Positions 1-55,536 of a stretch of 64,000 nucleotides of DNA are shown here, piece by piece; position 1 is the first letter of the stretch; every line of letters starts with the position of its first letter. Source of the DNA: Burkholderiales bacterium RIFOXYD12_FULL_59_19 (GTDB lineage: Bacteria; Pseudomonadota; Gammaproteobacteria; Burkholderiales; Burkholderiaceae_C). The notes under the pieces were generated by a model. It saw only the letters and a program-made list of their open reading frames with translations. It did no database searches and was not told where the DNA came from. The stretch lies in contig MESQ01000022.1 of NCBI GenBank assembly GCA_001771065.1, positions 1 to 64,000 of the forward strand. The letters run 5' to 3'. Position numbers and translations under genes: made by a program.

Positions 1-615
1 TCGCTGCCCGTGGCGTTGATGATGCCTCCACCGTCCAGTGTCACCGTGCCTACCGAGTCGTTGAAAGTGTTCAATTCCAATACGGCGGTAGCACCGTTAA
101 CGGTGACTGCGCCCGTGGCAATGGCGTTATCGACACCGTAATTGAGCGTGCCGGCGCTCACCGTAGTCAGACCCGTGTAGAGGTTTTGGTTGTTCAGGTT
201 GACCGTACCTGCGGTCGTTTTATTCAGCGCAATGCCGTCGCCGCCCAGCTTGGCGCTGACGGTGCCGTCTTTCATCTCAAAACTGCCGGTGCTGGTCAGT
301 ATGCCGTTGGTGCTGTCGCTGCCTGTGCCGCTGATCAGGCCAGCGTTGTCCAGTGTGACCGTACCCACGCTGTCGTTGAAGGTGTTCATCGCCAGTTCAG
401 CCCCGGCACCGCTCACCAGTACATCGCCAGTGGCCAGCGCGTCATTGGTACCGTAAGCCAGCTTGCCGGCGCTCACGGTGGTCAGGCCGGTGAAGGTGTT
501 CTGTTGATTGAGCGTGACTGTGCCAGCCGTGGTTTTGTTCAGCGCGATGTTGTCACCCGCCAAAATGACATTGACCGTGCCGTCCTGCATCTCAAAGCTG
601 CCCGTGCCGATCATG
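1..615 (-). repeat. 105-aa (315-nt) tandem autotransporter-associated beta-strand repeats within the adhesin CDS
   Basis: TGSFEMxDGTV...ALNKTTAGTVxLNxQNxxTGLTTVSAGxLxYG...NTFNDSVGTVTLDxxG recurs with exact 315-nt spacing (e.g. plus-strand gaccgtacctgcggtcgtttt at 201 and gactgtgccagccgtggtttt at 516). Confidence 0.8.
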
Positions 616-3221
616 GTGCTGGTGCCCATGCCAGCCAGTGTGCCGCCATTTTGCAACGTCACCGTGCCCACTGTGTCGTTGTGGTCAGCACCCAAATCAA
701 AGACGGCTGTGGCGCCGTCAACGGTCAAAAAGCCGCTGTCAGCCAGGAAACCGGTGGCACTTTCACGCAGTGTGCCGCCATTGACGGTGGTGCCAGCGGT
801 GTACGTATTGGTGTTGTCGAGGATCAAAATGCCGTTGTGGGTGGCATCGCCCACTAGCAGACCCCCATTGGAGAGCACGCCCTTCAGAGTGGCCGTGTCG
901 GTATTGGCTTCTACGCCCGACAGGGCGGCATCATTGGCCGTGACCAAAATGGTGCGAGTGGCACCATTGAGGTTGATGGCGTTGTCAAACGTGACTGCAT
1001 CGGTGGCGGTACTTGATCCGAAAAGTAGTTTGCTGCCGCTCGGAACAAAGCTGTTGGCACCCCAGGTTTGCGTCTGGTTGTTAGCCAGACTCACTTCCAG
1101 TGCACCACCTTGGGCAGCAAAACCGCCGTCGGCAGTCCATTGAACGCGTGGGCTTGCCGTGCCAACAAAGCGGTTAAACAAGCCATTGGTTTGCAGCACC
1201 CCGCCGCCCAAGTTGATGTTGCTGTTGGTGGCAATGCCGGTGCCGTCCTGAGCCTGTAGCACCCCCCCCGCAGCAATGTTGGTCCTGCCGGAATAGGTGT
1301 TTGAGCCGTTAAATATCACCAATCCGTCTTGCACGGTCAGGCTGGCACCATTGCCGTCAGCCACACCGGCGATGCCACTGTCGTCAGCGATCGAGCCGTT
1401 GAAGGTAATCACATTGTTGCCACCGGGGGCGAGCATCACGTTTGAGCCCTTCATCATGAACAAGTCGGTGCCGGCTGCGCTTCCAGGTGCGCCAGCCAGC
1501 GCGGTGGCGGTTTCGAGTTGACCATCGCCGCCTAAAGCAGCATTTTGTTCAAATTTTGCTGTGCCGGTGATGGTGAGATTGCCGCCACTTCTGACAAAAA
1601 TGGCACCACCAAAACCACTGCCGCCGCTGCCGCCACCCGCCAGGGTGCCAAAACCGGCGCCATTGGCACCCGCACCGGCACCAAAACCACCGGCACCACC
1701 GGCGCCGCCGGCACCATCCAAGCCGTTGGGTTTACCGGCAAATTGATTTTCAGGAGTGGCAGCTTGGGCTGGCGTAATCACTTTGGTTTCGATGGTCGTT
1801 ACCGTGACGGGCTTGCTCTTGACAGTCACCGTATCAATAATTTGTAGATTTGTGATTGGATCCAAAACCGGGATGTCAACCATCAGATTAGTCAATGGAT
1901 CCAATGTCGGAATAACACGGGGTACATCAAGGGTGTAAGTATTGGCCAGTATGGTGGGTTGACCTGTCTTGACCACAACCGTTAAGGTTGGATCAACGGG
2001 GTCGGTATAGATTTCGTCATAAGTGACCTTGGTGGTTGAAATGTCTTGCGTCACAGCGGCAACAGCAGCTTTAGCCGGTGTGGTTTTTGCATCAGCACCT
2101 GCACCGCCAGTGCCACCCGCACCACCTGATCCACCGCCGGCGCCGAATCCGCCCATGCCACCGTTGCCACCAGAACCGGCATCGCCGCCTGCAGCGCCAC
2201 CATTAAAAGCAGAGCCGCTCCAGTTGGCTCCGCCTTTTCCACCGGGCCCACCTGCGCCCCCTATGCCACCACCATTGCTAAAAGCGCCAACGCCACCGGT
2301 GCCACCCTGACCACCGGAGCCACCACCGCCAATCTGGCCATTGGCAAGTGCCTGATCCCACTCTGCAAGGGCAGCTGAAGCGGTTGCCAAGTCAGCAATG
2401 GATAAAACCAAGCCTCCGGTAGCAATGACCAAATCAGCCGACGTAAGCACCAGGGTTCCCGCCGCAATGACTGCTGCAGCATACTCAATGCTGACTGCTG
2501 CGACAGCCAGGTCGGCAACTGCCAATCCCACTCCCGCCACAGCCGATACGACAGAAGCCCCCGCAAGAACAGTTGCAGCAGCGCCTGATGCTACTCCCGC
2601 AATGGCGTATTCATTTCTATCGCCGCCACCGCCGCCGACACCGCCAGCCCCGCCCGTTCCGCCAGCGCCACCTGTGCCGCCAACACCGCCCTTGGAGCCG
2701 TTGGTGCCGCCAACATCGACAGAATTTATGCGCGTAGGTGTCGTGCCAGCAGCACCTGTGGTGCCTAGCGTGCCATTGCCCAGGTTATTCAGCGAGCCGC
2801 CAACGTTCGTTCCACCGACGGCCGTACCGCCAATCACCGTATTGCCGAAAAAATTCACATTGTTAAGGTTGACTGTGGCACCTTGGTTGATAAAAATGGC
2901 ACCGCCCAAACCGGCTCCGCCACCGCTACCGGCTCCGCCGATCGTTGCGTAATTGGTGATCGTTGTGTTGGAGAGCGATAGGGTCCCGCTTTCGACAAAG
3001 CGGCCACTGCCGCCATGGCCATCATCAATAGTTTGTGCACCTAAACCAGCTCCAGAGCAAGCCAGAAAAGCGCCAGCAGCTACTGAGACAAGAGCATTCA
3101 GGGTTTTGCCTGAACGGCTTTTTTTGCCACGCCCCCGGGTGGTTTCGGCTACTGCGACATAGGTGTTGGTGCAAGCACTCCAGACCAGGCGGTAGGTGTG
3201 ATTAAGTGATGAGTTATGCAT
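1..3221 (-). CDS. Autotransporter-type (type V secretion) adhesin, N-terminal 1073 codons, truncated by left window edge
   Basis: Minus-strand reading frame open from ATG at 3221 to base 1, absent from ORF track because no stop is in the window. Begins MHNSSLNHTYRLVWSACTNTYVAVAETTRGRGKKS (ESPR-like extended signal peptide) then ALVSVAAGAFLACSGAGLGA. Gly-rich GGxGGxGG tracts, then PATR-like repeats (NGSNTYSGRTNIAAGGVLQA, NQQNTFTGLTTVSAGKLAYG). Confidence 0.85.
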   Translation of the reverse strand, partial: MHNSSLNHTYRLVWSACTNTYVAVAETTRGRGKKSRSGKTLNALVSVAAGAFLACSGAGLGAQTIDDGHGGSGRFVESGTLSLSNTTITNYATIGGAGSGGGAGLGGAIFINQGATVNLNNVNFFGNTVIGGTAVGGTNVGGSLNNLGNGTLGTTGAAGTTPTRINSVDVGGTNGSKGGVGGTGGAGGTGGAGGVGGGGGDRNEYAIAGVASGAAATVLAGASVVSAVAGVGLAVADLAVAAVSIEYAAAVIAAGTLVLTSADLVIATGGLVLSIADLATASAALAEWDQALANGQIGGGGSGGQGGTGGVGAFSNGGGIGGAGGPGGKGGANWSGSAFNGGAAGGDAGSGGNGGMGGFGAGGGSGGAGGTGGAGADAKTTPAKAAVAAVTQDISTTKVTYDEIYTDPVDPTLTVVVKTGQPTILANTYTLDVPRVIPTLDPLTNLMVDIPVLDPITNLQIIDTVTVKSKPVTVTTIETKVITPAQAATPENQFAGKPNGLDGAGGAGGAGGFGAGAGANGAGFGTLAGGGSGGSGFGGAIFVRSGGNLTITGTAKFEQNAALGGDGQLETATALAGAPGSAAGTDLFMMKGSNVMLAPGGNNVITFNGSIADDSGIAGVADGNGASLTVQDGLVIFNGSNTYSGRTNIAAGGVLQAQDGTGIATNSNINLGGGVLQTNGLFNRFVGTASPRVQWTADGGFAAQGGALEVSLANNQTQTWGANSFVPSGSKLLFGSSTATDAVTFDNAINLNGATRTILVTANDAALSGVEANTDTATLKGVLSNGGLLVGDATHNGILILDNTNTYTAGTTVNGGTLRESATGFLADSGFLTVDGATAVFDLGADHNDTVGTVTLQNGGTLAGMGTSTMIGTGSFEMQDGTVNVILAGDNIALNKTTAGTVTLNQQNTFTGLTTVSAGKLAYGTNDALATGDVLVSGAGAELAMNTFNDSVGTVTLDNAGLISGTGSDSTNGILTSTGSFEMKDGTVSAKLGGDGIALNKTTAGTVNLNNQNLYTGLTTVSAGTLNYGVDNAIATGAVTVNGATAVLELNTFNDSVGTVTLDGGGIINATGS

Positions 3222-3404
3222 GGCGTACCTTTTTCGGCTGTTGGCTGGATGGTTTTTCAGCCTGGGTTTGGGATCTGAATTTCGTCTGAACGAAGGTACC
3301 AAACCAAAAGAGCGAAAACCAACGAAAACCAACATGCCCGAGACGGGGCAGCATGAGCGACTACCCAGCCACTGATCAAGTGATTTAAAAACGGACGCCT
3401 GTCA

Positions 3405-5165
3405 TCAGTTGGGCAACCACAGCGTCAATCTGACCTGCCCGTGCACCGCTTCATACCTGACCTGCCCCCCCAATAATGCGGAAAAGCTGCGCACCAGGTA
3501 CAGCCCCAGGCCCGAGCCCGATTGCTTTTGCGCGCCAGGGCTGCGGTAGTACCTGTTGAATAGCCTGGCCGGGTCGGGCAAGCCGGCTGCGCCGGGCAGG
3601 TTTTGTACGCTGATCTGGATGCCGGGGCGGCCCGCGTCAGGCGCTGCTTCGGCACGGACAGTGATGACCGACAGGGGGGGCGAATATTTGACGGCGTTGT
3701 TGATCAGGTTGTCCAGAACAATGCGCAACAATTGCGGGTCAGTCTCAAAATCTGGGCTGGACGCTGTCGTGATGGCCAGGCGCTCGGGGTCCGGGCAGCG
3801 CGTGCGCACTTGCGCCAAAATTTCGGTGAGCTGGCAGGCTTGCCGTTGCAGCGTCGGCTGCTGGTGTTCAAGCAGATCAAGCTGCTGGCAGCGTTCAACC
3901 ATGCTGCTCATGTCGTCCAGGGCTTGTGTGGCGCGGCGCATTTGCGGCTCTTGTGCAGTCAGGTGGTCCAGGCTTAATGTGACCACCGAGATTGGCGTTT
4001 TGAGCTCATGGGTGAGCATGTCCATGAACTGATGCTGTGCAAGCAAGGCGCGCTTCACGCCCTGGTTGGCTTGTTGCAGCTTGCGATTGAGGCGGTGGAT
4101 GTACAGCGCAACGCCCGCAAGCAAGCTGATGGCCAGCACAATCAGTGCCAACAACCGGAACAACCAGGTCATATCGGGCGGCGGTGGGTTGGGGTCGTAA
4201 AGAAATCCGTCCAAACTGTAGTCAAACTTGATGATGCCAAATTTGGCATAGGTTTCAACGATGTGCTTCCAGCGCAACGCATTGTTGTGACCCATATGGA
4301 TGATGTCGGCGCCAATTCGTTGCGAGAGCGTTTTTGCCTCAAACGCCAGGTAGTCGCGGCTTTTGGTTTGTGTGTTGTACTGCGCCAGAATCAGTGTGAT
4401 GACTTCGTCTTGATGCGCCAAGGCATATTCCCAGCCCTTGAGCGTGGCGCTACGAAAAGCTGCCACCACCTCGGGCCGGGTTTGCTCGACCGTACGGCTG
4501 GTGAATAAAACGCCGTTATAGAAATCCATGCCGTATTGGTTCGGGTCGATCACACGGTAGGCAATGCCGCGCTGTTGCAGATAAAACGGTTCGTTGGACA
4601 GAAACGCGTTCATGGCCACAATCTTGCCTGCCAGCAAGTCATCGAGTCCGTTGGCCTGGGTATTGATGTTGAGTTTCTCCAGCGCAATACCTTCGTTGAT
4701 GAACATGGCTTTGAGGTCCAGACTTTCATCGCCCGGTTGCAGGCCAATGGCTCCGGCTCTGGCCACGTCCGAAGGCGTTTTGATTTTTTCATCCAGGGTC
4801 AGCAATACTTCGGGTGAATGCTGAAAGATCGGGGCCAACACCAACAAAGGCTTGCCCTCCAGAAAGGACTTGACCAAGCCCGATGACGACACGCCAAAGT
4901 CGGCACGTCCCTGGGTCACCTCGTCGATGGGTGAAATACTGGGAGACCCCTCTTTCAGGGTGACGACCAGCCCGGCCTCTTTGTAATAACCTTGGTGCAG
5001 CGCCGCGTAGTAGCCGGCAAACTCAAATTGGTGCAGCCAATTGAGCTGCAGGGTCACCATGCTGGTGCCAGGGTCAGCCAGTGCAGACCGGCACAGCCCC
5101 AGTAACAGCCCAAGCAAAAGCAACAGATTTCGGGTTTTGTGCCGGGCAATCAAGACGTTCGGCAT
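3405..5165 (-). CDS. Sensor histidine kinase with periplasmic NMT1/THI5-like substrate-binding domain (paralog 1)
   Basis: Signal peptide; LQLNWLHQFEFAGYYAALHQGYYKEAGL (NMT1/THI5-like); TM near LALIVLAISLLAGVALYIHRL; H-box MLTHELKTPISVV; N-box DNLINNAVKYS; GSGLGLYLVRSF. Confidence 0.88.
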   Translation of the reverse strand: MPNVLIARHKTRNLLLLLGLLLGLCRSALADPGTSMVTLQLNWLHQFEFAGYYAALHQGYYKEAGLVVTLKEGSPSISPIDEVTQGRADFGVSSSGLVKSFLEGKPLLVLAPIFQHSPEVLLTLDEKIKTPSDVARAGAIGLQPGDESLDLKAMFINEGIALEKLNINTQANGLDDLLAGKIVAMNAFLSNEPFYLQQRGIAYRVIDPNQYGMDFYNGVLFTSRTVEQTRPEVVAAFRSATLKGWEYALAHQDEVITLILAQYNTQTKSRDYLAFEAKTLSQRIGADIIHMGHNNALRWKHIVETYAKFGIIKFDYSLDGFLYDPNPPPPDMTWLFRLLALIVLAISLLAGVALYIHRLNRKLQQANQGVKRALLAQHQFMDMLTHELKTPISVVTLSLDHLTAQEPQMRRATQALDDMSSMVERCQQLDLLEHQQPTLQRQACQLTEILAQVRTRCPDPERLAITTASSPDFETDPQLLRIVLDNLINNAVKYSPPLSVITVRAEAAPDAGRPGIQISVQNLPGAAGLPDPARLFNRYYRSPGAQKQSGSGLGLYLVRSFSALLGGQVRYEAVHGQVRLTLWLPN

Positions 5166-5168
5166 GGG

Positions 5169-5861
5169 TTAAACCACCTGCACTTCAATGCTCAACTGGT
5201 AGCCCACCTGACGAATGACCTTGATGGGTTGCTCATCTGCGCTAACCTGAACCAGCTTCTTGCGCAGACGGGCAATTTGCATTTCCAGACCGGCTTTGCT
5301 GCAGTCCACTTTTCCGAGCAGGGCAATTAACTGCCAGTGTTCCAGGCGTTGTCCCGGCGCACGGGCAAATGCCGCCAGCAAGCTGCCTTCGTGGGCGCTG
5401 AGATTGATTTGGGTATTCTGACTGTGCTGCCCCGACAGGGTGAGTTTGTGCAGGTCAAGTTTGAGCGCAGCGCTGGTTTGTGCGGCCGGCCGCAGGCGGC
5501 GCGACAAGGCCTGCACAGCGGCACCGAGCTCGTCCATGGTGGTGGGTTTGGTCAGGTAGAGGTCGGCACCACTTGCGTAGCCCTGCAGTTTTTCTGACAC
5601 TTTGCCACGCGCTGTCAGCATGATGATGCCGATACCAGGCTGCCCCTGGCGGATGCGCTGTGCCAGACTGATGCCATCTTCACCGGGCAGATTCAGGTCA
5701 ATCAGCATCAGGTCGACGTGCATGCTGTCGGCAATTTCTACCAGGGCTTCGGCGCAATCGACCCCAACTACCTGGTGGCCGATGGCGCGCAGGGTTTCGA
5801 CGGTGATGTCGCGCAGGTCATCGTGGTCCTCCACGACGATGATGTTTAGCAGGGTAACCAT
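5169..5861 (-). CDS. Two-component response regulator, OmpR-like
   Basis: REC domain VVEDHDDLRD, LMLIDLNLPGEDG, YLTKPTT; C-terminal winged-helix-like region ending IKVIRQVGYQLSIEV. Confidence 0.88.
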   Translation of the reverse strand: MVTLLNIIVVEDHDDLRDITVETLRAIGHQVVGVDCAEALVEIADSMHVDLMLIDLNLPGEDGISLAQRIRQGQPGIGIIMLTARGKVSEKLQGYASGADLYLTKPTTMDELGAAVQALSRRLRPAAQTSAALKLDLHKLTLSGQHSQNTQINLSAHEGSLLAAFARAPGQRLEHWQLIALLGKVDCSKAGLEMQIARLRKKLVQVSADEQPIKVIRQVGYQLSIEVQVV

Positions 5862-7588
5862 AGGGTAAACCTTATCTGTTGTTGTACCACTTCGTACCTG
5901 ACCTGGCCACCCAAGAGCGTGGCAAAGCTGCGTACCAGGTACAGCCCCAGGCCCGAGCCGGTTTGTTTTTGCGCGCCCAGGCTGCGGTAGTATTTTTCGA
6001 ATAATTTGGCCGGGTCTGGCAAGCCCGCCGCGCCCGGCTGGTTTTGCACGCTGACCTGGACGCCGGCCCGGCCCGCGTCGGTAACTGGCTCGGCCTGGAG
6101 GGTGACGGGCGTGTGGGGTGGGGAATATTTCAGCGCGTTATTGATCAGATTGCCCAGCACAATACTGAGAAGTTGTGGATCACTCTCAATATCGGGACAG
6201 GACTCTGCTGCAAAACTAAGGCGATCAGGGGCCGGGCTGCGCGCGCGCAATTGCGCCAGCAGGTCTGGCAAATGACAGCGTTGCAGTTGCAACGTGGGTT
6301 TTTCGTGTTCGAGCTGATCGAGCTGTTGGCAGCGCTCAACCATGTTGCTCATGTCGTCCATGGCTTGCTCGGCGCGCTGTTTGATGGCGCTTTGCGGGTT
6401 GTGAACTGACATCTGTTTGAGCGTCAAAGAGACCACTGAAATCGGTGTTTTCAGCCCGTGGGTCAGCATGTCCATAAATTGGTGCTGCTCGTTCAAAGTG
6501 CGCTCAATGGCATTTTGGGCGCGGTGGAGCTTGCGATTGAGACGGTGAATATAGAAGGCAAAAGCTGCGATTGCGCTCAGCCCCAGCAGCACCGCTGCCA
6601 ACAGGCGATAGAGCCATGTCATGTCTGGTGGCGGCGGATTGGGGTCGTAGAAAAAGCCGTCCAGGCTGTAGCCAAATTTGATGATGCCAAATTTGGCATA
6701 GGTTTCGACGATGTGATGCCAGCGCCTCGGGTTGCTGTGTCCCATCTGGATCACGTCAGAGCCAATCAGATCAGCCAGCGTTTTTGCCTCAAATACAAGG
6801 TATTCACGGCTTTTTTCTTGGCTGTTGTACTGCGCCAGAATGAGCCCGACCACCTCATCCTGATGTGCCAAAGCATACTCCCAGCCCTTGAGCGAGGCGG
6901 TACGAAAGGCAGCAACCACGTCGGGCTGGGCCATTTCTACAGACCGGCTGGTGAATAAAACACCGTTGTAAAAATCCATGCCATATTGGTTTGGGTCGAT
7001 CACACGGTAGGGAATGCCGCGCTTTTGCAGATAAAAGGGTTCATTGGACAAAAAAGCGTTCATGGCCACAATCTTGCCCGTCAGCAAATCATCGAGTCCC
7101 TTGGCCTGGGTATTGATGTTGAGCTTGTCCAGTGCAATACCTTCGTTGACGAACATGGCCTTGAGGTCCAGGCTTTCATCACCCGGCTGCAGGCCAATGG
7201 CTCCGGCTTTGGCCACCTCAGGGAGCGTTGTGTTTTTTGTACCCAGGCTAAGCAACACTTCAGGCGAGTGCTGAAAGATGGGAGCCAAGACCACCACGGG
7301 TTTGCCCTCCAGAAACGATTTGACCAAGCCCGATGATGAGACGCCAAAGTCGGCACGCCCCTGGGTGACCTCGTCGATGGGTGAAATACTGGGGGAGCCC
7401 GCTTTCAGGGTGACTGCCAGCCCGGCATCTTTATAAAAACCTTTGTGCAGTGCAGCGTAATAGCCGGCAAACTCAAATTGATGCAGCCAATTGAGTTGCA
7501 GCGTTACCTGCTTTGTGGCTGGGGCAGCCAGAGCCGTCTGGGTGACAATCAGCAGCAGCGCGATCCATATAACCAGTCTCTTTTGCAT
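5846..7588 (-). CDS. Sensor histidine kinase with periplasmic NMT1/THI5-like domain (paralog 2; H-box HGLKTP)
   Basis: Likely start MQKRLVIWIALLLIVTQTALA (track start 7666 adds a non-signal leader). Same architecture as 3405..5165; overlaps RR start by 16 nt. Confidence 0.85.
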   Translation of the reverse strand: MQKRLVIWIALLLIVTQTALAAPATKQVTLQLNWLHQFEFAGYYAALHKGFYKDAGLAVTLKAGSPSISPIDEVTQGRADFGVSSSGLVKSFLEGKPVVVLAPIFQHSPEVLLSLGTKNTTLPEVAKAGAIGLQPGDESLDLKAMFVNEGIALDKLNINTQAKGLDDLLTGKIVAMNAFLSNEPFYLQKRGIPYRVIDPNQYGMDFYNGVLFTSRSVEMAQPDVVAAFRTASLKGWEYALAHQDEVVGLILAQYNSQEKSREYLVFEAKTLADLIGSDVIQMGHSNPRRWHHIVETYAKFGIIKFGYSLDGFFYDPNPPPPDMTWLYRLLAAVLLGLSAIAAFAFYIHRLNRKLHRAQNAIERTLNEQHQFMDMLTHGLKTPISVVSLTLKQMSVHNPQSAIKQRAEQAMDDMSNMVERCQQLDQLEHEKPTLQLQRCHLPDLLAQLRARSPAPDRLSFAAESCPDIESDPQLLSIVLGNLINNALKYSPPHTPVTLQAEPVTDAGRAGVQVSVQNQPGAAGLPDPAKLFEKYYRSLGAQKQTGSGLGLYLVRSFATLLGGQVRYEVVQQQIRFTLWLPC

Positions 7589-7711
7589 AAAGGTGTTGTC
7601 CGATGCGTCCTGACTGCGGGCGATTTTGAGTTTGCTGATGATTGTATGCAGATGTAACGGGCGCAAGGGTTTGGAGCTATGGGTTTACTTTCAATTGACA
7701 AACAAGGCTCA

Positions 7712-8353
7712 ACCATGGTGATGACGGCTAAAAATATCGTTTTTGACTTTGGTGCCGTGTTGTTCACCTGGCAACCCAGGGTGTTGATAGCAACCCATTT
7801 CCCTGAGCAAGCAGCCACACCTGAACAGGCAGCAGTGCTGGCCCACGCGGTATTTGCCCATGCCGATTGGCACAATTTTGACCGCGGGGTGTTGCCGGCA
7901 CACGCCGTCAGTGTGCGCACGGCGGCACGCCTTGGCTTGCCAGAGCCAGCGCTGCGCGCCCTGATTGACGGTATTGCCGAGCATTTACAGCCGATGCCCG
8001 ACACCTTGGCTGTGCTTGCGCAACTGCGCGCCCTGCGTGATCAGCAGCCAGACAGGTTACGGCTGCATTTTTTGTCCAATATGCCCATTCCGTATGCGCG
8101 GTTGCTGGAACAGAAACACGCCTTCTTGAGCTGGTTTGACGGCGGTGTTTTTTCAGGCGATGTGCAGCTGGTCAAACCCGAGCCCGAGATTTATGAGCTG
8201 CTGGAGTCCCGTTATGCGCTGGTGCCGGGCAACACCATCTTTATTGACGACTTGGCAGACAACGTGGCGAGTGCCCGGGCGCGTGGCTGGCAAGGCATTC
8301 ACTTTGTGTCGGCCGCGCTACTTCAGGCTCAACTGATGCCGCTATTGGCCTGA
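7712..8353 (+). CDS. HAD-family hydrolase (HAD-IA type)
   Basis: NIVFDFGAVLFTWQP motif I; FLSNMPIPYA; SGDVQLVKPEPEIYELL; FIDDLADNVASARARGW. Confidence 0.8.
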   Translation, partial: TMVMTAKNIVFDFGAVLFTWQPRVLIATHFPEQAATPEQAAVLAHAVFAHADWHNFDRGVLPAHAVSVRTAARLGLPEPALRALIDGIAEHLQPMPDTLAVLAQLRALRDQQPDRLRLHFLSNMPIPYARLLEQKHAFLSWFDGGVFSGDVQLVKPEPEIYELLESRYALVPGNTIFIDDLADNVASARARGWQGIHFVSAALLQAQLMPLLA

Positions 8354-9208
8354 CAGGTAGCTGGCGGCAAAGCCGTGCAGGCTGGCCTGGTAGAGCCCGG
8401 GGTCGACCTGATCCAGATCGCTGTGCGCGGCACCCTCTACACGGACCCATTGTTTGGGTGGGTTGGCCGCTGCGAACAGGCGCTCGCCCAGCTGGATCGG
8501 AATGGTGTTGTCCTGACTGCCGTGCAGCATCAGCAACGGGGCCTGAACCCGGCCAATCTTATCAATGGAAGTAAAACGCTCGGTGGTGAACAGGGCAGCC
8601 ACGCTGGTCCAAAAGCCGGCAGACTGTGCGACATCGGTGAAGCTGGTAAAGGCTGACTCCAGGATCAGCCCGCCGTAGTCAGTTGGGGAGGTTAAAGTGC
8701 TGGCCAGGTCCACGGCCACTGCGCTGCCCATCGAGTGGCCGTAGATCACCCGATGTGCTGCGTGTGGTTCACGGCGCACCAATTCGGCCCAGGCCTGCCT
8801 GGCATCAGACAGAATGGTTTGTTCTGACGGGGTGAGGCGACTGCTTTGCCCCCAGCCCCGGTAGTCCACCGCCAGCACTTGAAAACCCGCCTGGTGCAGT
8901 GCGTTGATTTTGTGCAAGTTACCTTCCAGGTTGCGAAAGGTGCCGTGCAGGTACAGCAGCGTAGGCGCGTCAGCGTCTGGTTGGGGCAGCCACCAAAATG
9001 CCAGGTGGCCTGATGGTCCGGGGTGGGGCAGCGCCAGCCGATAATGCAGCAAACCTGGTGGCAAATGTGTAGTACCCTGAGACGCTGACAGGGTGGGCCG
9101 GTAAATAATCTGCCGTTGTTGTTCACCCAACCAGGCGCAGCCGCTCAGGGCCAGCATGAGCCCAACGCAGATTCCTCTTAACCCCAACCAGCGCCATGTT
9201 TGACTCAT
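8342..9208 (-). CDS. Alpha/beta hydrolase, probable lipoprotein
   Basis: From MSQTWRWLGLRGICVGLMLALSGCAW (lipobox LSGC); TLLYLHGTFRNLEGN, VDYRGWGQS, IYGHSMGSAVA, LMLHGSQDNTIP. Confidence 0.82.
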   Translation of the reverse strand: MSQTWRWLGLRGICVGLMLALSGCAWLGEQQRQIIYRPTLSASQGTTHLPPGLLHYRLALPHPGPSGHLAFWWLPQPDADAPTLLYLHGTFRNLEGNLHKINALHQAGFQVLAVDYRGWGQSSRLTPSEQTILSDARQAWAELVRREPHAAHRVIYGHSMGSAVAVDLASTLTSPTDYGGLILESAFTSFTDVAQSAGFWTSVAALFTTERFTSIDKIGRVQAPLLMLHGSQDNTIPIQLGERLFAAANPPKQWVRVEGAAHSDLDQVDPGLYQASLHGFAASYLSGQ

Positions 9209-9710
9209 GAAAAATAAGATTCGATTACTCACCGGGCTGATTGTGGCGCAGCTTGCCGTGCCCGCACTTGCCGCCCCAGGCTTTATGACCGATTGGATCC
9301 AGGGAAAGCAGGTGCGCTGGCAGTTCAGCCCCATGACCTACCACTACTCGGAAGATTCCGAGCACAAACGGGTGGTCATGGTTGGGCTGGAGCGTGAGAA
9401 TGCCGACCGTAGCCTGGACGGTGCAGCGCTTTTTACCAATTCATTTGGTCAGCCTACGGTGTACCTCTACCCGTGGGGGCGTACCTACAAATCTGTTGCG
9501 GGCATAGACAACTTGTCCATGAAATGGACGGCCGGGCTGCTTTATGGCTACCGTGACCCGTTTGAAAACAAGGTTCCGCTGAATTTCAGGGGCTTTTCAT
9601 TGGCACTGATTCCTGCTGTCGCCTATGAGTTCAAGCCAGATTGGCAAGCCCAGGTGAATTTTTTGGGTACGGCAGGTTTGATGTTTTCCTTTAGCACCAG
9701 GTTCAATTGA
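9207..9710 (+). CDS. Small secreted/outer-membrane beta-barrel-like protein
   Basis: Signal peptide MKNKIRLLTGLIVAQLAVPALAA; alternating aromatic/polar C-terminal strands ending LMFSFSTRFN. Confidence 0.6.
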   Translation: MKNKIRLLTGLIVAQLAVPALAAPGFMTDWIQGKQVRWQFSPMTYHYSEDSEHKRVVMVGLERENADRSLDGAALFTNSFGQPTVYLYPWGRTYKSVAGIDNLSMKWTAGLLYGYRDPFENKVPLNFRGFSLALIPAVAYEFKPDWQAQVNFLGTAGLMFSFSTRFN

Positions 9711-9775
9711 GATTCACATGAAAATTGGCATTTTGCCCTCACGGAGTAAATGCCAGATGCTATTCAATTAAATAA

Positions 9776-9815
9776 GAAGGCCTCGCAGAGCAAATGCTAT
9801 GCGAGGCCTTCTTTT
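9776..9815. terminator. Bidirectional rho-independent terminator between 9207-9710 gene and groEL
   Basis: 12-bp perfect stem GAAGGCCTCGCA...TGCGAGGCCTTC followed by TTTT on + strand and an A/T-rich flank on the other side. Confidence 0.85.
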
Positions 9816-9859
9816 GATGCGGGGAGGGAGTCGAAACCCCCTCGCGCAGCAGAGCGCAA

Positions 9860-11527
<1,668 letters not shown>

Positions 11528-11539
11528 TCAGTTAATTAA

Positions 11540-11830
11540 TTACTTTTCAACGACTGCGAACAGGTCGTCTTCTTTCATGACCAACAGTTCGTCACCATCG
11601 ACCTTGACGGTCTGGCCGCTGTACTTGCCAAACAACACGCGGTCGCCGACCTTGACAGCCATCGGGCTGACTTCACCCTTGTCGTTCTTTTTGCCTGGGC
11701 CAACGGCCAGCACTTCGCCTTGATCAGGCTTTTCTGCGGCGCTGTCAGGAATGACGATGCCGGAAGCGGTGCGGGTTTCGTTTTCTACGCGTTTGACAAT
11801 CACGCGGTCGTGCAGGGGACGAAGTTTCAT
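11540..11830 (-). CDS. groS: Co-chaperonin GroES
   Basis: [46 protein letters not shown]; upstream of groEL. Confidence 0.99.
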
Positions 11831-11929
11831 GGGGACTCCTATAAAGTTTGAAACAGGGGTTTAACAAAAAATCACCAGAATGAACATGCTGGTGACTTGT
11901 AACTGTCAGACTGGGTGCTAAAAAATTTG

Positions 11930-11956
11930 TTAGCACTCATATCTAAGGAGTGCTAA
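11930..11956 (-). promoter_or_regulatory. CIRCE element (HrcA operator) for groESL
   Basis: Exact TTAGCACTC-N9-GAGTGCTAA. Confidence 0.97.
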
Positions 11957-11983
11957 TGATAAGGCCGTTTGAAACTCTTTCAA
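11956..11983 (-). promoter_or_regulatory. Sigma70-like groESL promoter adjacent to CIRCE
   Basis: Minus strand TTGAAA (11983-11978) N16 TATCAT (11961-11956), immediately upstream of CIRCE. Confidence 0.65.
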
Positions 11984-12069
11984 GAGCCAGGGGCATAATT
12001 TTGTGTTTTCCAGGCCATGCTGACCTGCAGACTTGAATTGTTCTACCATGTAACGAACAACCACGAGGG

Positions 12070-13926
12070 ATGGTCATGACTGATTTCCGGTTTGGTCGTA
12101 ACGTCAAGCCCAACGACCGCGCTGCGGTTTGTTGGTACCACCCGTGGGTCTTGTTGCTGGCTGCGCGCGATGTGTTGTCGTCGCTCAACCAGTTCAGAAA
12201 CCGCGATGAACGTGAGAGTTTTCCCCTGCCACTGACGATCATCGACCGCAGTCAGCGCCAGCCTGTTGCCGTCGTTGATGCAGGGCAGGGTGCTGCCGCT
12301 GGTGACTTCTGGTTTGACTTCATCGCTGACACCGGTGATGGCGGCAACGCCACTTATGCGGTGGCGCGCACCGCCCTGGCGGATCAATGGGTGGGTGATG
12401 ACGGGCAAGTTCTGCCACGCGGTGAATTGCTGGTGTTGGGTGGTGACCTGGCTTACCCAAGTGCCAGCGCGCTGGAATACCGCTACCGTTTTACCGAGCT
12501 CTTTGAAGCCGCTTTGCCAGACGAGCCCAGTTATAACGAGGCCGGCACCGCGCTGGTGCGAGGCCAGCCGTTTACCCTGGCCGCGCTGCCGCAAAACCAC
12601 GACTGGATGGACTCGGCCTCCACCTTTGGGCGCTACTTTTTGCGCAGCAAGCAGTCAAGGTCTTTGCTGGCGGCCGAGATTCCTCAGCGCCAGTCGTATG
12701 TATGCGCGCGCTTACCCCACGGTTGGTGGTTGCTGGGCCTGGACTTTGCCATGACCGACGACATAGACCGCGACCAGTTTGAACAATTCAAAAATCTGGC
12801 TTCGGCCCAAGGGCTGCAAACCGAGGTGAATGGCCAGCCCGTCACGCAGCGTATCTTGCCTGACGACCGCGTCATCTTGCTCTACCCCGCGCCGATCTGG
12901 ACCACACCGGTGGCGGCCGGGGTCTACCCTGGTGGCGCCAAACGCTACCAGTTGCTTGAAGGTCTGTTGCAGTCGCGTATTGCGCTACGCCTGGCGGGTG
13001 ACCTGCACCATTACATGCGCTGGACCTCTGAGCACGACGGGCAGTTGGTCACCTGCGGCACCGGCGGTGCCTTCAGTCACCCCACCCACACGCGCCTGAC
13101 TACCCCGCCCATTGTGGCGCGCAACGTCACCAATGCCTCGGCCATTCCGGCCAGTTCTGCCCGCATTGTGCAAGTGGGCCTGAACGATGGCCGCGCGCCG
13201 GAGCAAAGTCGGCCGTTCAACAAGGTGAACGGCTCCGAATACCCGTCTGTCAGCCAAAGCCGCAAGCTGGCACTCGGTAATGTTACGGCCCTGTTTGGCG
13301 GCGGCGGTGGCTTTTGGCAAGGCAATCGCTGGTTTGCCGGGGTGCTGGCCGGGCTGTATCTGGTCAGCGCCGGCTTGCATCAGTTGCCGTTCGGCTTGCT
13401 TTGGAGTGCCTTGCTGTTTGCCGCCCTGTGCCTGCCACTGGGCTGGGAGTCAAGGCTGGAAGTCTCACCCCAGTGGCAGGCTTGGCACGGCACGGCGTTG
13501 GCCATGGGGACCGGCCTGGCGCACGTGCTGTGCCATGTTGCGGCCCTCGCTGGCATGGGCTGGGGTGTGCAAGCGCTGCTGGTCTGGGCCGCGCCGGTGG
13601 GGGAATTGGGCCGTGTACTGGTTTGGCTGGTAGGCCTGCTGGCCGGCGGGGCGGTGCTGGGCACGCTGATTTTTGGTTGTTATCTGGCGCTGATGTCACG
13701 CCTCGGGTTCCTGACCACCAACGGCTTTTCTGCGCTGGCGCTGCAGGACTTCAAGGGTTTTTTGCGTTTTCAGATCAGCGCAGAGGGTGCGCTGCATGGC
13801 TATTTTGTGGCCATTGATCAGGTGCCCAGGGTCTGGGGCATGAACGACAAACCGCAACCGGTCTGGGCGCCAGCCGACCGGCCGTTGGCCAGCCGGGTGC
13901 ATGATCAGTTTGTGATCAGGAAATAA
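12070..13926 (+). CDS. Metallophosphoesterase (calcineurin-like) membrane protein
   Basis: DTGDGG, LVLGGDLAYPSASALEYRYRF, LPQNHDWMD, RLAGDLHHYMRW motifs; several TM segments in C-terminal third. Confidence 0.75.
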   Translation: MVMTDFRFGRNVKPNDRAAVCWYHPWVLLLAARDVLSSLNQFRNRDERESFPLPLTIIDRSQRQPVAVVDAGQGAAAGDFWFDFIADTGDGGNATYAVARTALADQWVGDDGQVLPRGELLVLGGDLAYPSASALEYRYRFTELFEAALPDEPSYNEAGTALVRGQPFTLAALPQNHDWMDSASTFGRYFLRSKQSRSLLAAEIPQRQSYVCARLPHGWWLLGLDFAMTDDIDRDQFEQFKNLASAQGLQTEVNGQPVTQRILPDDRVILLYPAPIWTTPVAAGVYPGGAKRYQLLEGLLQSRIALRLAGDLHHYMRWTSEHDGQLVTCGTGGAFSHPTHTRLTTPPIVARNVTNASAIPASSARIVQVGLNDGRAPEQSRPFNKVNGSEYPSVSQSRKLALGNVTALFGGGGGFWQGNRWFAGVLAGLYLVSAGLHQLPFGLLWSALLFAALCLPLGWESRLEVSPQWQAWHGTALAMGTGLAHVLCHVAALAGMGWGVQALLVWAAPVGELGRVLVWLVGLLAGGAVLGTLIFGCYLALMSRLGFLTTNGFSALALQDFKGFLRFQISAEGALHGYFVAIDQVPRVWGMNDKPQPVWAPADRPLASRVHDQFVIRK

Positions 13927-26358: not shown

Positions 26359-26817
26359 TTAACAAGCCATCAACAACCACGGGGCGGCCCATGAGATGGC
26401 ACGTTTCAGATGTGCCAGCGCCGCCGCGCTGGGAGGCTCGCCCAATTCAAATTTTTCTCCACGAATCGCCAGCAAAGTGCAGGGTGGTGCTGGTTCGCCC
26501 TGTACATCCTGGTAGACCTGCAGCAAGGCCTGCGGCGATAGGGCATGGGTGGTAAAGCTGGCATCCTGTGTTGCCTGCAACTTGGTTACCTCAAACGGCG
26601 CGGGGCAGCTCAGGCTGGCATCAATAAAGAGCACGCGTTGTCGGCCGATCAGGTCGAGCGCGTGCTCAATTTGCAACTGGTAATCTTCCAGGAACTCCAC
26701 CCGATCTTGTAATGTGGCTGGCAGTTGTTCGCGCAAGGCGGCCAGGCACAGCGGCCCCAGCGCGTCATCGCCCCGGCTCAGATTGCCCCAGCCCAGCACC
26801 AGTATCCGGGGTGTCAT
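26359..26817 (-). CDS. hoxW: Hydrogenase maturation endopeptidase
   Basis: ILVLGWGNLSRGDDALGPLCLAAL; FIDASLSC; THALSPQALLQVY; 4-nt overlap with hoxH. Confidence 0.88.
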   Translation of the reverse strand: MTPRILVLGWGNLSRGDDALGPLCLAALREQLPATLQDRVEFLEDYQLQIEHALDLIGRQRVLFIDASLSCPAPFEVTKLQATQDASFTTHALSPQALLQVYQDVQGEPAPPCTLLAIRGEKFELGEPPSAAALAHLKRAISWAAPWLLMAC

Positions 26818-28304
26818 GTGGTGCGTGTCAGCCCGCTTTGTGGCGATTTCTGCACATGGTCCAGCAGCGAGCCGTCAGCCGCCAGCAGCGTCACGTCCAG
26901 CGGCATCTGGCCTAGCGCGTGGGTGGCGCAGGACAGGCAGGGGTCATAGGCGCGAATGGCGACTTCGATGTGGTTGAGCAGGCCCTCGGTCAGTTCCTGA
27001 CCGTCCAGGTAGTCCCGCGCCACCGAGCGCACCGCTTCGTTCATAGCCTGGTTGTTGTGGGTGGTGGACACAATCAGGTTGCAGCGTGTGACCAGGTCAT
27101 CGTCACCCACCTCGTAGTCGTGGATCAAGGTACCGCGCGGCGCTTCGATCATGCCGACCCCATGGCGCTGGCGCACGCCGGTGGTGACAAGGTCGCCCGA
27201 CAACAGCGCCGGCTCAGTCAGCAATTCAGTAATCACCTCGACCGCGTGCAGCATCTCGATCATGCGTGCCCAGTGGTAAGCCAGCGTGGCATGCACCGGC
27301 TCACCCCGGCCCCAGGCGACAAAGGCCCGGCGCTCAGCTTCAGCACGGGCGCTGGGAATAAAGTCGCAGTTTTGCACCCGGGCCAGCGGACCCACGCGGT
27401 ACCAACCCAGCTGCGCACCCAAGCTGCGCAGGTAGGGAAACTTCATGTAGCTCCAGGGGCGCACTTCTTCTTCAATGAGCTCCAGGTACCGCTGGTCGTC
27501 GATCTGGTCAAACAAAATGCGGCCATTTTCATCACGTACCCGCAGCACACCGTCGTACAAATCCATGGCACCATCGGCGCGCACCAGCGACATCACATTG
27601 GACTTGAAGCTGCCAAAGTTGTTGTACAGCGCCGGGTTTTGCGCATGTAACTGTTTGGCAATGGCCACCGCATCTTGTGCCCATTGCAGCATCTGGGGCA
27701 AGTCGCGTTGCAGGCTATTGCGTTCATCTGCAGTGACCAGCTTGTTGATGCCGCCCGGCACGGCGCCGGTGCCATGCACGCGTTTGCCTGAGGTGATCCG
27801 AATGATTTCCTGGCCGAACTTGCGCAGCGAAATGCCCTTTTTCGCGATCTCGGGGTGGGCTTGCGCCACACCCACGATGTTGCGCTTGGCCACTTCTGAA
27901 TCAAACCCAAACAACAGATCGGGCGACGACAGGTGAAAGAAGTGCAGCGCATGGGATTGCAGGATTTGCCCGTAGTGCATCAGGCGCCGCACGACGTTGG
28001 CGCTGGCGCTTACCGGTGTAGCGCCCAGCACGCGGTCAAACGCCTTGGCCGCCGCCAGGTGGTGCGACACCGGGCAGATGCCGCACAGGCGCTGCACCAT
28101 CACCGGCACTTCCCAGTAGGGGCGGCCTTCGATGAATTTCTCAAACCCCCGGAACTCGACAATATGCAGGCGCACCTGCTCGATGTGGTTGTCGGCGTCC
28201 AGCAGCAGCGTCACCTTGCCATGCCCCTCGACGCGCGACACCGGGTCAATCGCCACCCGGCGCAGGTGCTCGGGGTGGGCGGCGGTTTCAAGTGGAAAAG
28301 TCAT
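26814..28304 (-). CDS. hoxH: NAD-reducing hydrogenase large subunit HoxH
   Basis: RVEGHGKVTLLLDADNHIEQVRLHIVEFRGFEKF; RLCGICPVSHH; C-terminal DPCLSCATHALG cleavage motif. Confidence 0.95.
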   Translation of the reverse strand: MTFPLETAAHPEHLRRVAIDPVSRVEGHGKVTLLLDADNHIEQVRLHIVEFRGFEKFIEGRPYWEVPVMVQRLCGICPVSHHLAAAKAFDRVLGATPVSASANVVRRLMHYGQILQSHALHFFHLSSPDLLFGFDSEVAKRNIVGVAQAHPEIAKKGISLRKFGQEIIRITSGKRVHGTGAVPGGINKLVTADERNSLQRDLPQMLQWAQDAVAIAKQLHAQNPALYNNFGSFKSNVMSLVRADGAMDLYDGVLRVRDENGRILFDQIDDQRYLELIEEEVRPWSYMKFPYLRSLGAQLGWYRVGPLARVQNCDFIPSARAEAERRAFVAWGRGEPVHATLAYHWARMIEMLHAVEVITELLTEPALLSGDLVTTGVRQRHGVGMIEAPRGTLIHDYEVGDDDLVTRCNLIVSTTHNNQAMNEAVRSVARDYLDGQELTEGLLNHIEVAIRAYDPCLSCATHALGQMPLDVTLLAADGSLLDHVQKSPQSGLTRTT

Positions 28305-28353
28305 GGAATATCCCTTATGCAATGGGGTATCACCCGGTTTTGATGGGAACTCT

Positions 28354-28411
28354 GTAGGGTTGAATGTGGGGCGGACTTCAGTCCGCCATGGTCGACTGAA
28401 GTCGACCCTAC
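28354..28411. repeat. REP/BIME-like double palindrome between hoxY and hoxH
   Basis: GTAGGGTTGA...GGCGGACTTCAGTCCGCC (28370-28387) + GGTCGACTGAAGTCGACC (28390-28407), ending TCGACCCTAC. Confidence 0.8.
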
Positions 28412-28439
28412 AACAAGCCCAACAACAAGGTCAAATCCT

Positions 28440-29018
28440 TCAGTCATAGCGAATGAGTCCATGCCCCAATTGCGGCGTGCGTCCAGCCAGCAGGTCCGTC
28501 AAAAACGACCAGATGGCGTCGGCGCTGGGTGGGCAACCGGGCAAAAAATAGTCCACATGCACCACCTCGTGGATCGGGTGCACATGGTTTAGCGGCAGTG
28601 GCAGCTCGGGGTCGTTGGGTACCTGGCTACCGGCCACCGTGCCGTTGTGGCTGCAATACACATCACACAGCATCTGGCCCACATCGCGCTGGTTGCGCTG
28701 TGCCGGCAGGCCGCCGTTGATGGCGCAGGCGCCCATCGCCACCAGCGTCTTGCAGTGCGCCCGAAATTCGCGCAGCACCTGCACGTTTTCGGCATTGCAT
28801 AGCCCGCCTTCGATCAGGCCAATGTCGCAGCGGCCAATGGTTTTGATGTCGGTCAGCGGTGAGCGGTCAAACTCGACGTGTTCCAGCAGTTCCAGCAGGC
28901 GCTCGTCAATGTCGAGCAAGGACATGTGGCAGCCAAAACAGCCCGCCAGTGACACCGTGGCCACCTTGAGCTTGCGTGGCGCGTGTAAGGGAGTTGCACC
29001 AGTCAAAGCGGTTGTCAT
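28440..29018 (-). CDS. hoxY: NAD-reducing hydrogenase small subunit HoxY
   Basis: VSLAGCFGCHMSLLDIDERLLELLE; VDYFLPGCPPSADAIWSFL. Confidence 0.95.
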   Translation of the reverse strand: MTTALTGATPLHAPRKLKVATVSLAGCFGCHMSLLDIDERLLELLEHVEFDRSPLTDIKTIGRCDIGLIEGGLCNAENVQVLREFRAHCKTLVAMGACAINGGLPAQRNQRDVGQMLCDVYCSHNGTVAGSQVPNDPELPLPLNHVHPIHEVVHVDYFLPGCPPSADAIWSFLTDLLAGRTPQLGHGLIRYD

Positions 29019-29737
29019 GTCTCGTCCTCCTGCGACACCGGGTGGCTGTCAAATCGCCGCTGGCCAATGGGGATGACAAAGCCGCGCCGTTTGGGCAGGA
29101 TGGCGCCCACCGGGCAGATGTTGGCGGCACGGTCTGTGGCGCTGATGGCGCTGTTCAACAGCTGGCCACTGTCGCTATTGACCAGCAAATGGCTGGCCAC
29201 ACCGCGCCCGCCCATGGCAAACACATGTTTGCCCTCTTGCGCACTGGCGCGCACACACAGGCCGCACAAAATACAGCGGTTCAGGTCCAGCAGCAGGTCG
29301 GGGTGGCTGGCATCGACCCGACGGTTCGGGTAAAACTCTTCAAAGTGCGGCCCGTCCATGCCCATTTGGTAGGCGGTGGCCTGAAGCAGGCAGTTGCCGC
29401 TCTTTTCGCATGACGGGCAAAAGTGGTTGCCTTCGACAAACAGCATTTGCAGCAGCGTTTTGCGCTGGGTGTTGAGTTCGGGGGTGTCGCTTTCCACGTC
29501 TTGTCCACTGCTGGCCGCAATGGTGCAGGCCGCCCCGGTGCGTCCGTTGACCTTGACCGTGCACAGTCGGCAAGAGCCATGGGCAGCAAAGTCGGGATGC
29601 CAGCACAGGTGTGGAATGTAATGCCCGGCGCGGCGGGCGGCCTGCAAAATGGAGTCACCCGGGCCAAATTCGACCTCTTGCCCGTCCAGGGCAAAGGTGC
29701 CGGGGCTCAGGGCGTCAATGCGGTGGTCTGTCATCAT
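29015..29737 (-). CDS. hoxU: Diaphorase small subunit HoxU
   Basis: [2Fe-2S] and [4Fe-4S] motifs: CWHPDFAAHGSCRLCTVKVNG, NHFCPSCEKSGNCLLQ, LDLNRCILCGLCVRAS. Confidence 0.95.
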   Translation of the reverse strand: MMTDHRIDALSPGTFALDGQEVEFGPGDSILQAARRAGHYIPHLCWHPDFAAHGSCRLCTVKVNGRTGAACTIAASSGQDVESDTPELNTQRKTLLQMLFVEGNHFCPSCEKSGNCLLQATAYQMGMDGPHFEEFYPNRRVDASHPDLLLDLNRCILCGLCVRASAQEGKHVFAMGGRGVASHLLVNSDSGQLLNSAISATDRAANICPVGAILPKRRGFVIPIGQRRFDSHPVSQEDET

Positions 29738-31545
29738 TCAAAATTCTCCAGGTGCGCGCCGCTGTCGTTGCGTCCGGTGGCGCGCCGCGCCTGCGAGAGT
29801 TCGGCGTCCATGTCAAACCCTGCGACAAAGTGCAGGGATTTCAAATGCTGCTCGTAGGCCGGGCGAAACTTGGTGATGGTGTCGCGCAACGGGTTGCAGG
29901 CCCCAGCGCCCAGGCCGCAGTGGGTGGCGCCGTGCATCAGTTTGTCCAGCTCATACAGCACCTGGATGTCGGCGCTGGAGCCATAACCGCGCTTGAGTTT
30001 GTCCATCTGGCGCACCACCAGCTCGGTCCCGACGCGACAAGGTGTACAAAAGCCGCAGCTCTCATGGGCAAAAAAGTGGGCAAAGTTGCGGGCCACCTCA
30101 AACATGTCGCGGCTACGGTCAAACACCATGAAGGCGCCCGCCGTGGGCACATCCTCAAAGCCAATGTGGCGGTCAAATTCCAGCGCTGACAGGCATACGC
30201 CTGATGGCCCGCCAACCTGTACTGCCTGGGTGTTGCGTGCGCCGCAGTCTTCCAGGATGCGCCCGACGCGCGTGCCAAAAGGGTACTCGTAAATGCCGGG
30301 GCGCTCGCAGTCGCCCGAGACCGAGTGGATCTTGGTGCCGGTCGATTGTGCTGTACCGATGCGCGCCCACCAGGCGCCGCCATGCACGGCAATGTGGGTG
30401 ACGGCGCAGAAGGTTTCTACATTGTTGACGGTGGTGGGCTGGCCCAGGTAGCCGTGCTCCACCGGGAAAGGGGGGCGGATGCGGGGCACGCCGCGCTTGC
30501 CTTCCAGCGACTCGATCAATGCTGACTCTTCACCACACACATAAGCCCCGGCGCCCACATGGATGGTAATGTCAAAGTCAAAACCGGCCTTGCCCTGGAT
30601 GGACTTGCCCAGCAGGCCGTGTTCGCGCCGCCGCTGCAAGACCGCTTGCAGGTGGTCCAGCAGGTAACGGTATTCGCCGCGCAAGTACATCAGCCCTTGG
30701 CTGGCGCCCACCGTCCACGCCGCGATGGTCATGCCCTCGAACAGGGTGTCGGCGTAGCTGGTCAACAGCACCCGATCCTTGAAAGTGCCGGGCTCGCCTT
30801 CGTCGGCGTTGCAAACCACATAATGTGCCTGCCCCACGGCATTGCGGCACAGTTGCCATTTGGTGCCAGTGGCATAACCGGCGCCGCCCCGGCCGCGTAA
30901 TTTGGAACGTTTTAGATCGTCCAGCATGGCCTGGGGCTCACGCGCCAGTGCGGCGGCAAGGCCCGCTCCGGGCTGCGGTTGCACGCCCAGTTTGACATCT
31001 GCCAGGCGAATCTGGTCGTCGACCTGCGACCATTCCGCTGGCCATTGCGCGGCGGGTACCTGCTGTTCGATCAGGTCGGCCATCTGCGCAATACGGTCAG
31101 GGGTCAGCCGGGTGATCACCTGATGGTGGTTGATGAGCGCCGCCGGTCCCTGGTCGCACAGCCCGGTGCAAGAGCTGGTGGTCACACTGACCAGACCATC
31201 GGCACGCATCTGGTTCCGGGCTACTTTCAACAGGCCGCACAATTGCCGTAACAGGGCTTCGTTGCCGAGCATGCGGTCGGTGATGTTGTTGCTGAACAGG
31301 ACGCGGTAAGCACCCACCGGCTCGGTGTGAAAAAAACGGTAAAAGTCGGCAACCCCCTGCACATGGGCCAGCGTCAGGTTCAAGGCCTTGGCCGCATGTT
31401 GCAATGCCGAGCGCGGCAACCAGCCTGCAAAGGCCTGAAATTCGCGCAGAATTTGAACCAGGGCGTGAGGATCGCTGCCATGGCGCTGCAGCAAGGACTG
31501 AAGTTCAGCCGCCGAGCGCGCGGACAGGGGTGAAATTGCATTCAT
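29734..31545 (-). CDS. hoxF: Diaphorase large subunit HoxF (fused NuoE/NuoF-like)
   Basis: GRGGAGYATGTKWQLCR, CNADEGEPGTFKDRVLL, GAGAYVCGEESALIESLEGKRGVPRIRPPFP, ESCGFCTPCRVGT. Confidence 0.95.
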   Translation of the reverse strand: MNAISPLSARSAAELQSLLQRHGSDPHALVQILREFQAFAGWLPRSALQHAAKALNLTLAHVQGVADFYRFFHTEPVGAYRVLFSNNITDRMLGNEALLRQLCGLLKVARNQMRADGLVSVTTSSCTGLCDQGPAALINHHQVITRLTPDRIAQMADLIEQQVPAAQWPAEWSQVDDQIRLADVKLGVQPQPGAGLAAALAREPQAMLDDLKRSKLRGRGGAGYATGTKWQLCRNAVGQAHYVVCNADEGEPGTFKDRVLLTSYADTLFEGMTIAAWTVGASQGLMYLRGEYRYLLDHLQAVLQRRREHGLLGKSIQGKAGFDFDITIHVGAGAYVCGEESALIESLEGKRGVPRIRPPFPVEHGYLGQPTTVNNVETFCAVTHIAVHGGAWWARIGTAQSTGTKIHSVSGDCERPGIYEYPFGTRVGRILEDCGARNTQAVQVGGPSGVCLSALEFDRHIGFEDVPTAGAFMVFDRSRDMFEVARNFAHFFAHESCGFCTPCRVGTELVVRQMDKLKRGYGSSADIQVLYELDKLMHGATHCGLGAGACNPLRDTITKFRPAYEQHLKSLHFVAGFDMDAELSQARRATGRNDSGAHLENFE

Positions 31546-31634
31546 GGCGCGCAATATAGCGCACAAAATTACAATGCGTCATGCGGATTGCCTGTGTCGA
31601 GCCAATCCCCCAAACCAACCAGACTGGAATCAAC

Positions 31635-52912: not shown

Positions 52913-53475
52913 GCTAAAGCAAACCAGGGCTTTTTTGCCGTCCGCGTCGTTTGAATCAGCAGTACAGATATTTCCCAGGCAAGGCAGCACAGATGCCGCC
53001 AAATCGGGCTGTGCTGTCCTTCACATGAGTGCATGTTGTGTCTGGGCAATGAGGTGGCAAGCGCGGACAGTAAGGCCCAAGGGCTCGCTACGTAACGAAC
53101 CCTAATTTTTAAGGAGTTGCACATGTATCCCATCTCTCACGCCCTCTCTCTGCTGCCTCAACAGTGCCGCCTGATCAATGCCACGGAAGGCGTTCGTCTT
53201 GAAGTGTGCAGCGGCTGCCTGTGGCTGACCCGGCCTGGTGATGCCGTGGACCGGTTTTTGGTGGCTGGCAGTACGATCGATTTACATGAAAACCATGTGC
53301 TGATTCAAAGCGACCGGCATCCCGGGGCTGCCGGTGGCGTGGCCGCACGTTATGTGCTGGTGCCCCTGTGCGCACCCAGTGTGAACCGGCACCGCCAGTG
53401 GTTCCAGCGCTTGACCCGCCAGGCGGGGAACTACGTGCAGGGTCTGGCTGAAGTGAGCACACGCGTTACACTGAA

Positions 53476-55536
<2,061 letters not shown>

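Follow-up and report, generated by a model that had tools for sequence, protein, structure and literature searches.

In the 64,000-nucleotide stretch of Burkholderiales bacterium RIFOXYD12_FULL_59_19 analysed here (contig MESQ01000022.1, positions 1 to 64,000; hereafter the window), three minus-strand genes spanning 3405–7588 encode two sensor kinases and a single response regulator, and are followed on the same strand by the gene of a giant autotransporter, the likely target of the regulator judging from its position and promoter. The order of transcription is HK-up, regulator, HK-down, where HK-up denotes the first-transcribed histidine kinase (HK2 in a preliminary description of this DNA, in which HK-down was named HK1). 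HK-up (5846–7588, minus strand, 580 aa) is composed of a signal peptide, an NMT1/THI5 sensor, one transmembrane segment, a HisKA domain with the H-box sequence HGLKTP, and HATPase_c; HK-down (3405–5165, minus strand, 586 aa) shares this architecture with an intact HELKTP. The OmpR/PhoB-type regulator encoded between them (5169–5861, minus strand, 230 aa) consists of Response_reg (87 bits) and Trans_reg_C (43.5 bits) domains; its gene overlaps that of HK-up by 16 nt and is separated from that of HK-down by a gap of 3 nt. All three open reading frames were recovered on the minus strand at the positions, and with the order and spacing, given in the preliminary description.

The common architecture of the kinases, noted there as well, was reproduced by the Pfam search. 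NMT1 (PF09084) is matched nearly over its full length in both proteins (E = 3e-37 and 1.1e-36; 127–129 bits against a cut-off of 20.5), HATPase_c exceeds its Pfam cut-off in both, and the HisKA matches of 20.5 and 24.1 bits come just under the curated cut-off of 26.9, the H-box of HK-down being canonical. The paralogy earlier perceived by eye corresponds to an overall identity of 74%, which is unevenly distributed: 86% in the sensor core, 67–72% in the kinase parts, and 50% in the transmembrane and linker region.

The autotransporter gene (1–3221, minus strand) starts 184 bases past HK-down and runs off the contig end, so that only its 5' part (1073 aa) can be read, with an ESPR signal peptide, a Gly-rich passenger and PATR repeats. 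The probable target of the regulator, i.e. the gene starting at 3221 with its upstream repeat, thus lay outside the region covered by the preliminary description, which missed it.

Predicted operator and distribution

The predicted binding site of the regulator is the direct repeat GTTGGTTTTCGTTGGTTT with a 10-bp period at 3316–3333 (minus strand), which has no second copy in this genome even when one mismatch is allowed; a direct repeat of 10–11 bp period is the binding form expected of PhoB/OmpR regulators. Among 90 congeneric genomes surveyed, an NMT1 kinase together with this regulator occurs in three, namely the window genome, G281 and G278. In all three the motif GTTGGTTTNNGTTGGTTT is located 88–94 bases before the start codon of the autotransporter, including the G281 gene, which resides on a separate contig (C73) unlinked to the kinases. 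With up to one mismatch allowed, each of these genomes holds one copy, always at the autotransporter promoter; the other 87 contain no exact copy, and one-mismatch matches are about as frequent there as those of a reversed control. No copy with up to one mismatch precedes HK-up in any of the three genomes, and autoregulation through this site was rejected on that ground.

Close autotransporter homologues (72–100% identity) were confined to the three genomes that hold the kinase–regulator system, none being found in the remaining 87, with weaker matches in G270, G277 and G244. The kinase–regulator–kinase order emphasized in the preliminary description is retained in G281; G278 departs from it, with one kinase and the regulator, which the autotransporter homologue follows directly downstream. 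On the outside, the block is flanked by different genes in each of the three genomes, thus the block moves. The beta-domain PF03797, beyond the contig end in the window, is present in the G281 homologue in an overlapping frame: this gene is split over L065:5825–7681 and 7660–12882 (minus strand), passenger and beta-domain apart, by an assembly error or a real frameshift. It is followed by the gene of an SBP_bac_3 solute-binding protein (L065:4924–5829, minus strand).

More distant relatives of the regulator (≈ 43–59% identical) are paired with kinases carrying 7TMR-DISM or dCache sensors, and many relatives of the regulator or the kinase core adjoin ESPR passengers, ShlB/FhaC transporters, DUF4347 or other giant repeat proteins. 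Within the genus, 10 of 24 regulator matches lie within ≈ 7 kb of an ESPR gene on their contig, against a background of ≈ 112 ESPR genes in the 90 genomes, and three further matches have a DUF4347 gene. In the regulator tree the three NMT1-system regulators form one clade (100/99) among the adhesin-linked regulators. At two other loci (L063 and L064, genomes G216 and G269), almost identical regulators stand beside different giant proteins, a DUF4347/cadherin protein in one case and an ABC (ATP-binding cassette) exporter with a Big_12 protein in the other, which looks like an exchange of adhesins next to the same switch. Tandem pairs of family regulators were seen at single adhesin loci in L045 (54% and 43% identity to the window regulator) and L055 (50% and 39%).

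A repeat with a 10-bp period (at least 8 of 9 positions) precedes 13 of 20 regulator-linked targets. Other periods from 6 to 16 were met in 0–2 of the same promoters, and shuffled sequences gave a mean of 0.3 and a maximum of 3. Such repeats occur in 6 of 115 other upstream regions of the same loci (Fisher 3e-9) and at 4 of 40 ESPR genes unlinked to the regulator (Fisher 2e-5); the latter set rules out that they are a general trait of type V genes. The independent evidence for the repeat is its uniqueness together with this family-wide comparison, and the assignment of 3316–3333 as the operator stands as a prediction.

The sensor domain and the two kinases

The sensor of HK-down occupies 4164–5060 (minus strand; residues 36–334), that of HK-up 6614–7510 (minus strand; approximately residues 27–325). 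The AlphaFold model of the former (predicted local distance difference test score, pLDDT, 93.6) is matched best by the thiamin-bound protein 4NMY, by ThiY with bound N-formyl-4-amino-5-aminomethyl-2-methylpyrimidine (FAMP; 3IX1) and by Thi5. Because of these matches, the modelled fold belongs firmly within the NMT1/THI5 group; Pfam and fold agree in placing the N-terminal domains inside this clan. The first ligand loop reads LNWLHQFEF, compared with LDWYPNAVH in ThiY and LDWTPNTNH in 4NMY, the ThiY-type motif LDWxPNxxH being absent from the window sensor. The latter falls into a subfamily of signalling proteins marked by the signature LRW-HQFQFAGYYAA, whose carriers, mostly GGDEF proteins and sometimes kinases, are distributed over many Proteobacteria and Campylobacterota. 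At three metagenome-bin loci (L107, L112, L117) two NMT1-sensor genes stand side by side, and the second of them also encodes GGDEF and an EAL-like motif, i.e. a tandem pair with a different output. In Gallionella (L071, L072) an NMT1-PAS-kinase with a 60% identical sensor faces a divergent OmpR-type regulator gene on the opposite strand.

Across ≈ 89 sensors with GGDEF, kinase and other outputs, particular positions are strongly conserved, and the clade under study shows specific shifts at otherwise near-fixed ones. N42, E48, F188 and G218 are common to the HK-down sensors of both trios and to the HK-up sensor of the window, which is hence of the same derived type; F188 and G218 were found in none of the others among 89 distinct sensors, and R42, Q48, Y188 and D218, the usual residues at these positions, are retained in the upstream kinases of G281 and G278. 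Such shifts are as expected of a change in ligand.

The kinases differ in the H-box. The putative phospho-acceptor His of HK-up (CAC) is followed by a Gly (GGG, 6457–6455) in place of the conserved Glu (6455–6460 for both codons, minus strand). An acidic residue follows the His in all ≈ 30 other family kinases with a readable H-box, HK-up being the sole exception. In the HisKA kinases that have been studied this residue serves as the catalytic base, and its loss is expected to impair autophosphorylation. HK-up is therefore probably a weak kinase; the remainder of the protein is intact and conserved no less than HK-down. The resemblance of the two kinases in descent and architecture thus holds, their equivalence does not.

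The history of HK-up appears to be composite. For sensor residues 41–240, trees uniting the upstream kinases are rejected (approximately unbiased (AU) test, p ≈ 1e-4). Residues 281–437 favour precisely this union, the placement of HK-up beside the downstream type being rejected only weakly (AU p 0.17 for protein, 0.04 for DNA), and the ATP-binding part alone gave no tree resolution. The simplest account of these trees would be gene conversion of the HK-up sensor, with HK-down as the donor. As the sole history it could not be upheld, since the weak rejection for residues 281–437 would also accommodate an independent duplication as the origin of this sensor.

A putative attachment switch and its rivals

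Taken together, the two kinases and the OmpR-type regulator probably constitute a dedicated attachment switch controlling the neighbouring autotransporter via the 10-bp repeat. The tandem-duplicated inner-membrane kinases would bind a small extracellular molecule in their periplasmic NMT1/THI5 (Venus-flytrap) domains, presumably the same ligand since the sensors are alike, and binding would shift the kinase/phosphatase balance at the shared regulator. The phosphorylated regulator would then bind the tandem repeat ≈ 90 bp upstream of the autotransporter and thereby control its transcription. HK-down may supply most of the phosphate, with HK-up acting mainly as a phosphatase or heterodimer partner. 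In the wider family, the sensor would be swapped (NMT1, 7TMR-DISM, dCache) and the giant secreted adhesin-like output kept.

Several points weigh against this interpretation. The exact system is confined to three genomes, and both comparison genomes match records of metagenome-assembled genomes; in G281 the trio adjoins exopolysaccharide genes (polysaccharide export and chain-length) and not its target, which is unlinked, and five family loci (G122, G271, G279, G230 and G283 C109) have no adhesin nearby. The repeat was derived from the same three promoters and is therefore bound to be present in them, its period was picked after these promoters had been viewed, and the 20 promoters include close relatives that are not all phylogenetically independent. 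The HisKA scores of both kinases are below the Pfam cut-off. Finally, whereas the sequence itself shows the architecture, linkage, co-occurrence, repeat, H-box change and sensor type, we infer from it ligand binding, phosphotransfer, regulator–DNA binding and transcriptional control of the autotransporter, along with the sign of regulation and a role of the passenger in adhesion.

The preliminary description correctly recognized duplicated NMT1/THI5-domain kinases sharing one regulator, with periplasmic sensing, as domain match and fold now support, and it named a pyrimidine or riboflavin/thiamin precursor as a plausible ligand. A thiamin-pyrimidine or flavin-precursor sensor regulating vitamin salvage or transport would suit the nearest solved folds, those of thiamin- and FAMP-binding proteins and Thi5, as well as the occurrence in the same window, 46 kb from the trio, of a thiC-like gene under a thiamin pyrophosphate (TPP) riboswitch. 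This gene, however, already has its own riboswitch, the ligand loop is unlike that of ThiY, the predicted operator was found at the autotransporter alone, and the genes seen next to the system in the three genomes include none for vitamins or transporters, so that a vitamin or transport regulon was discarded and this reading appears very unlikely; the ligand of an adhesion switch may nevertheless be a pyrimidine. The riboswitch itself (53473–53574, plus strand, 65.7 bits) is located just upstream of the thiC-like open reading frame at 53620. The polysaccharide genes next to the G281 trio could also indicate that the regulator acts chiefly on other surface genes, e.g. for exopolysaccharide, the autotransporter link being a by-product of rearrangement and the repeat the site of another factor. 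This is hardly probable in view of the strict co-occurrence of close autotransporter homologues with the system (three of three genomes against 0 of 87), the repeat kept at the unlinked G281 promoter, and the enrichment of 10-bp repeats at regulator-linked targets over unlinked ESPR genes.

It is likewise improbable, if somewhat less so, that the NMT1 domain functions without a small molecule, as a mechanical module signalling in the apo state or as a docking site for another protein. Venus-flytrap sensor kinases are diverse, BvgS being the member studied as a model (PMC4352136, PMC5829827), and the loop of the signalling subfamily deviates from that of transport proteins; the strong conservation of particular sensor positions and the clade-specific shifts, on the other hand, fit a ligand change. 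A less remote alternative concerns the kinases themselves: HK-up may be fully active despite the Gly, such that the two add up or, as proposed in the preliminary description, compete for the regulator. The intact remainder of HK-up favours this, and the single-base change in its H-box could be strain-specific or an assembly error, but the acid is present in every other family kinase read, with the role in catalysis described above. The two kinases may still compete, but this reading is complicated by the lost acid, and full activity of HK-up is doubtful.

Known systems and wider meaning

The attachment switch proposed here resembles BvgAS of Bordetella in its periplasmic Venus-flytrap sensor on a kinase and in an output that includes a giant secreted adhesin. 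It differs in that its kinases have one NMT1 domain and its regulator is of the OmpR type; the Pfam search found in them none of the BvgS-family traits, i.e. tandem SBP_bac_3 flytraps, PAS and phosphorelay domains (in BvgS itself, tandem SBP_bac_3 domains are combined with PAS and receiver parts; PMC5829827). The NMT1-GGDEF and NMT1-PAS-GGDEF cyclases share the sensor subfamily and its signature (≈ 40–60% identity), but their output is synthesis of cyclic di-GMP in place of a kinase–regulator pair. ThiY, 4NMY and yeast Thi5 have the fold and PF09084 in common with the window sensors, yet they are free transport proteins or an enzyme, with another loop motif and 16–21% identity in the structural match. 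With PhoB/OmpR-type systems the regulator shares its two domains and, in its predicted form, the tandem direct-repeat operator of ≈ 10–11 bp period, whereas the named NCBIfam families score far below cut-off for it and its relatives are found at adhesin loci. When the literature was searched for links between NMT1 and GGDEF, between 7TMR-DISM and two-partner secretion, and between OmpR 10-bp repeats and autotransporters, no description was returned, with poor coverage of subscription papers, and a match for DUF4347 was off the subject according to its abstract; this is weak evidence for novelty of the system. What is new here is the probable target, along with its predicted operator and the family of systems with swapped sensors. 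Elsewhere in the window, open reading frames at 26814–31566 (minus strand) read by eye like an NAD-reducing hydrogenase cluster (hox-like).

On a broader view, held with slightly better than even confidence, this betaproteobacterial family would possess a hitherto undescribed, adhesin-dedicated family of two-component systems with a conserved kinase core and regulator, a portable tandem 10-bp operator, and interchangeable sensors and giant adhesins; in the present case the sensor of the duplicate would have been homogenised to the derived ligand type and one copy, having lost kinase competence, turned into a modulator. The cue for deployment of giant adhesins in environmental bacteria is rarely known, and here one operon ties a sensor of a ligand-binding type to a single predicted promoter. 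Around one regulator, the family presents a natural series in which sensors and adhesins are exchanged, its portable repeat allows targets to be predicted without expression data, and the trio sensors, divergent in G281 and alike in the window, offer a ready-made way to test how one regulator is shared by duplicated kinases. Most likely, the near-twin sensors and the one switch of this freshwater bacterium control the giant surface protein encoded next door, and the relatives that keep the switch and swap the sensor suggest that attachment is coupled to different chemical cues in a plug-in fashion.

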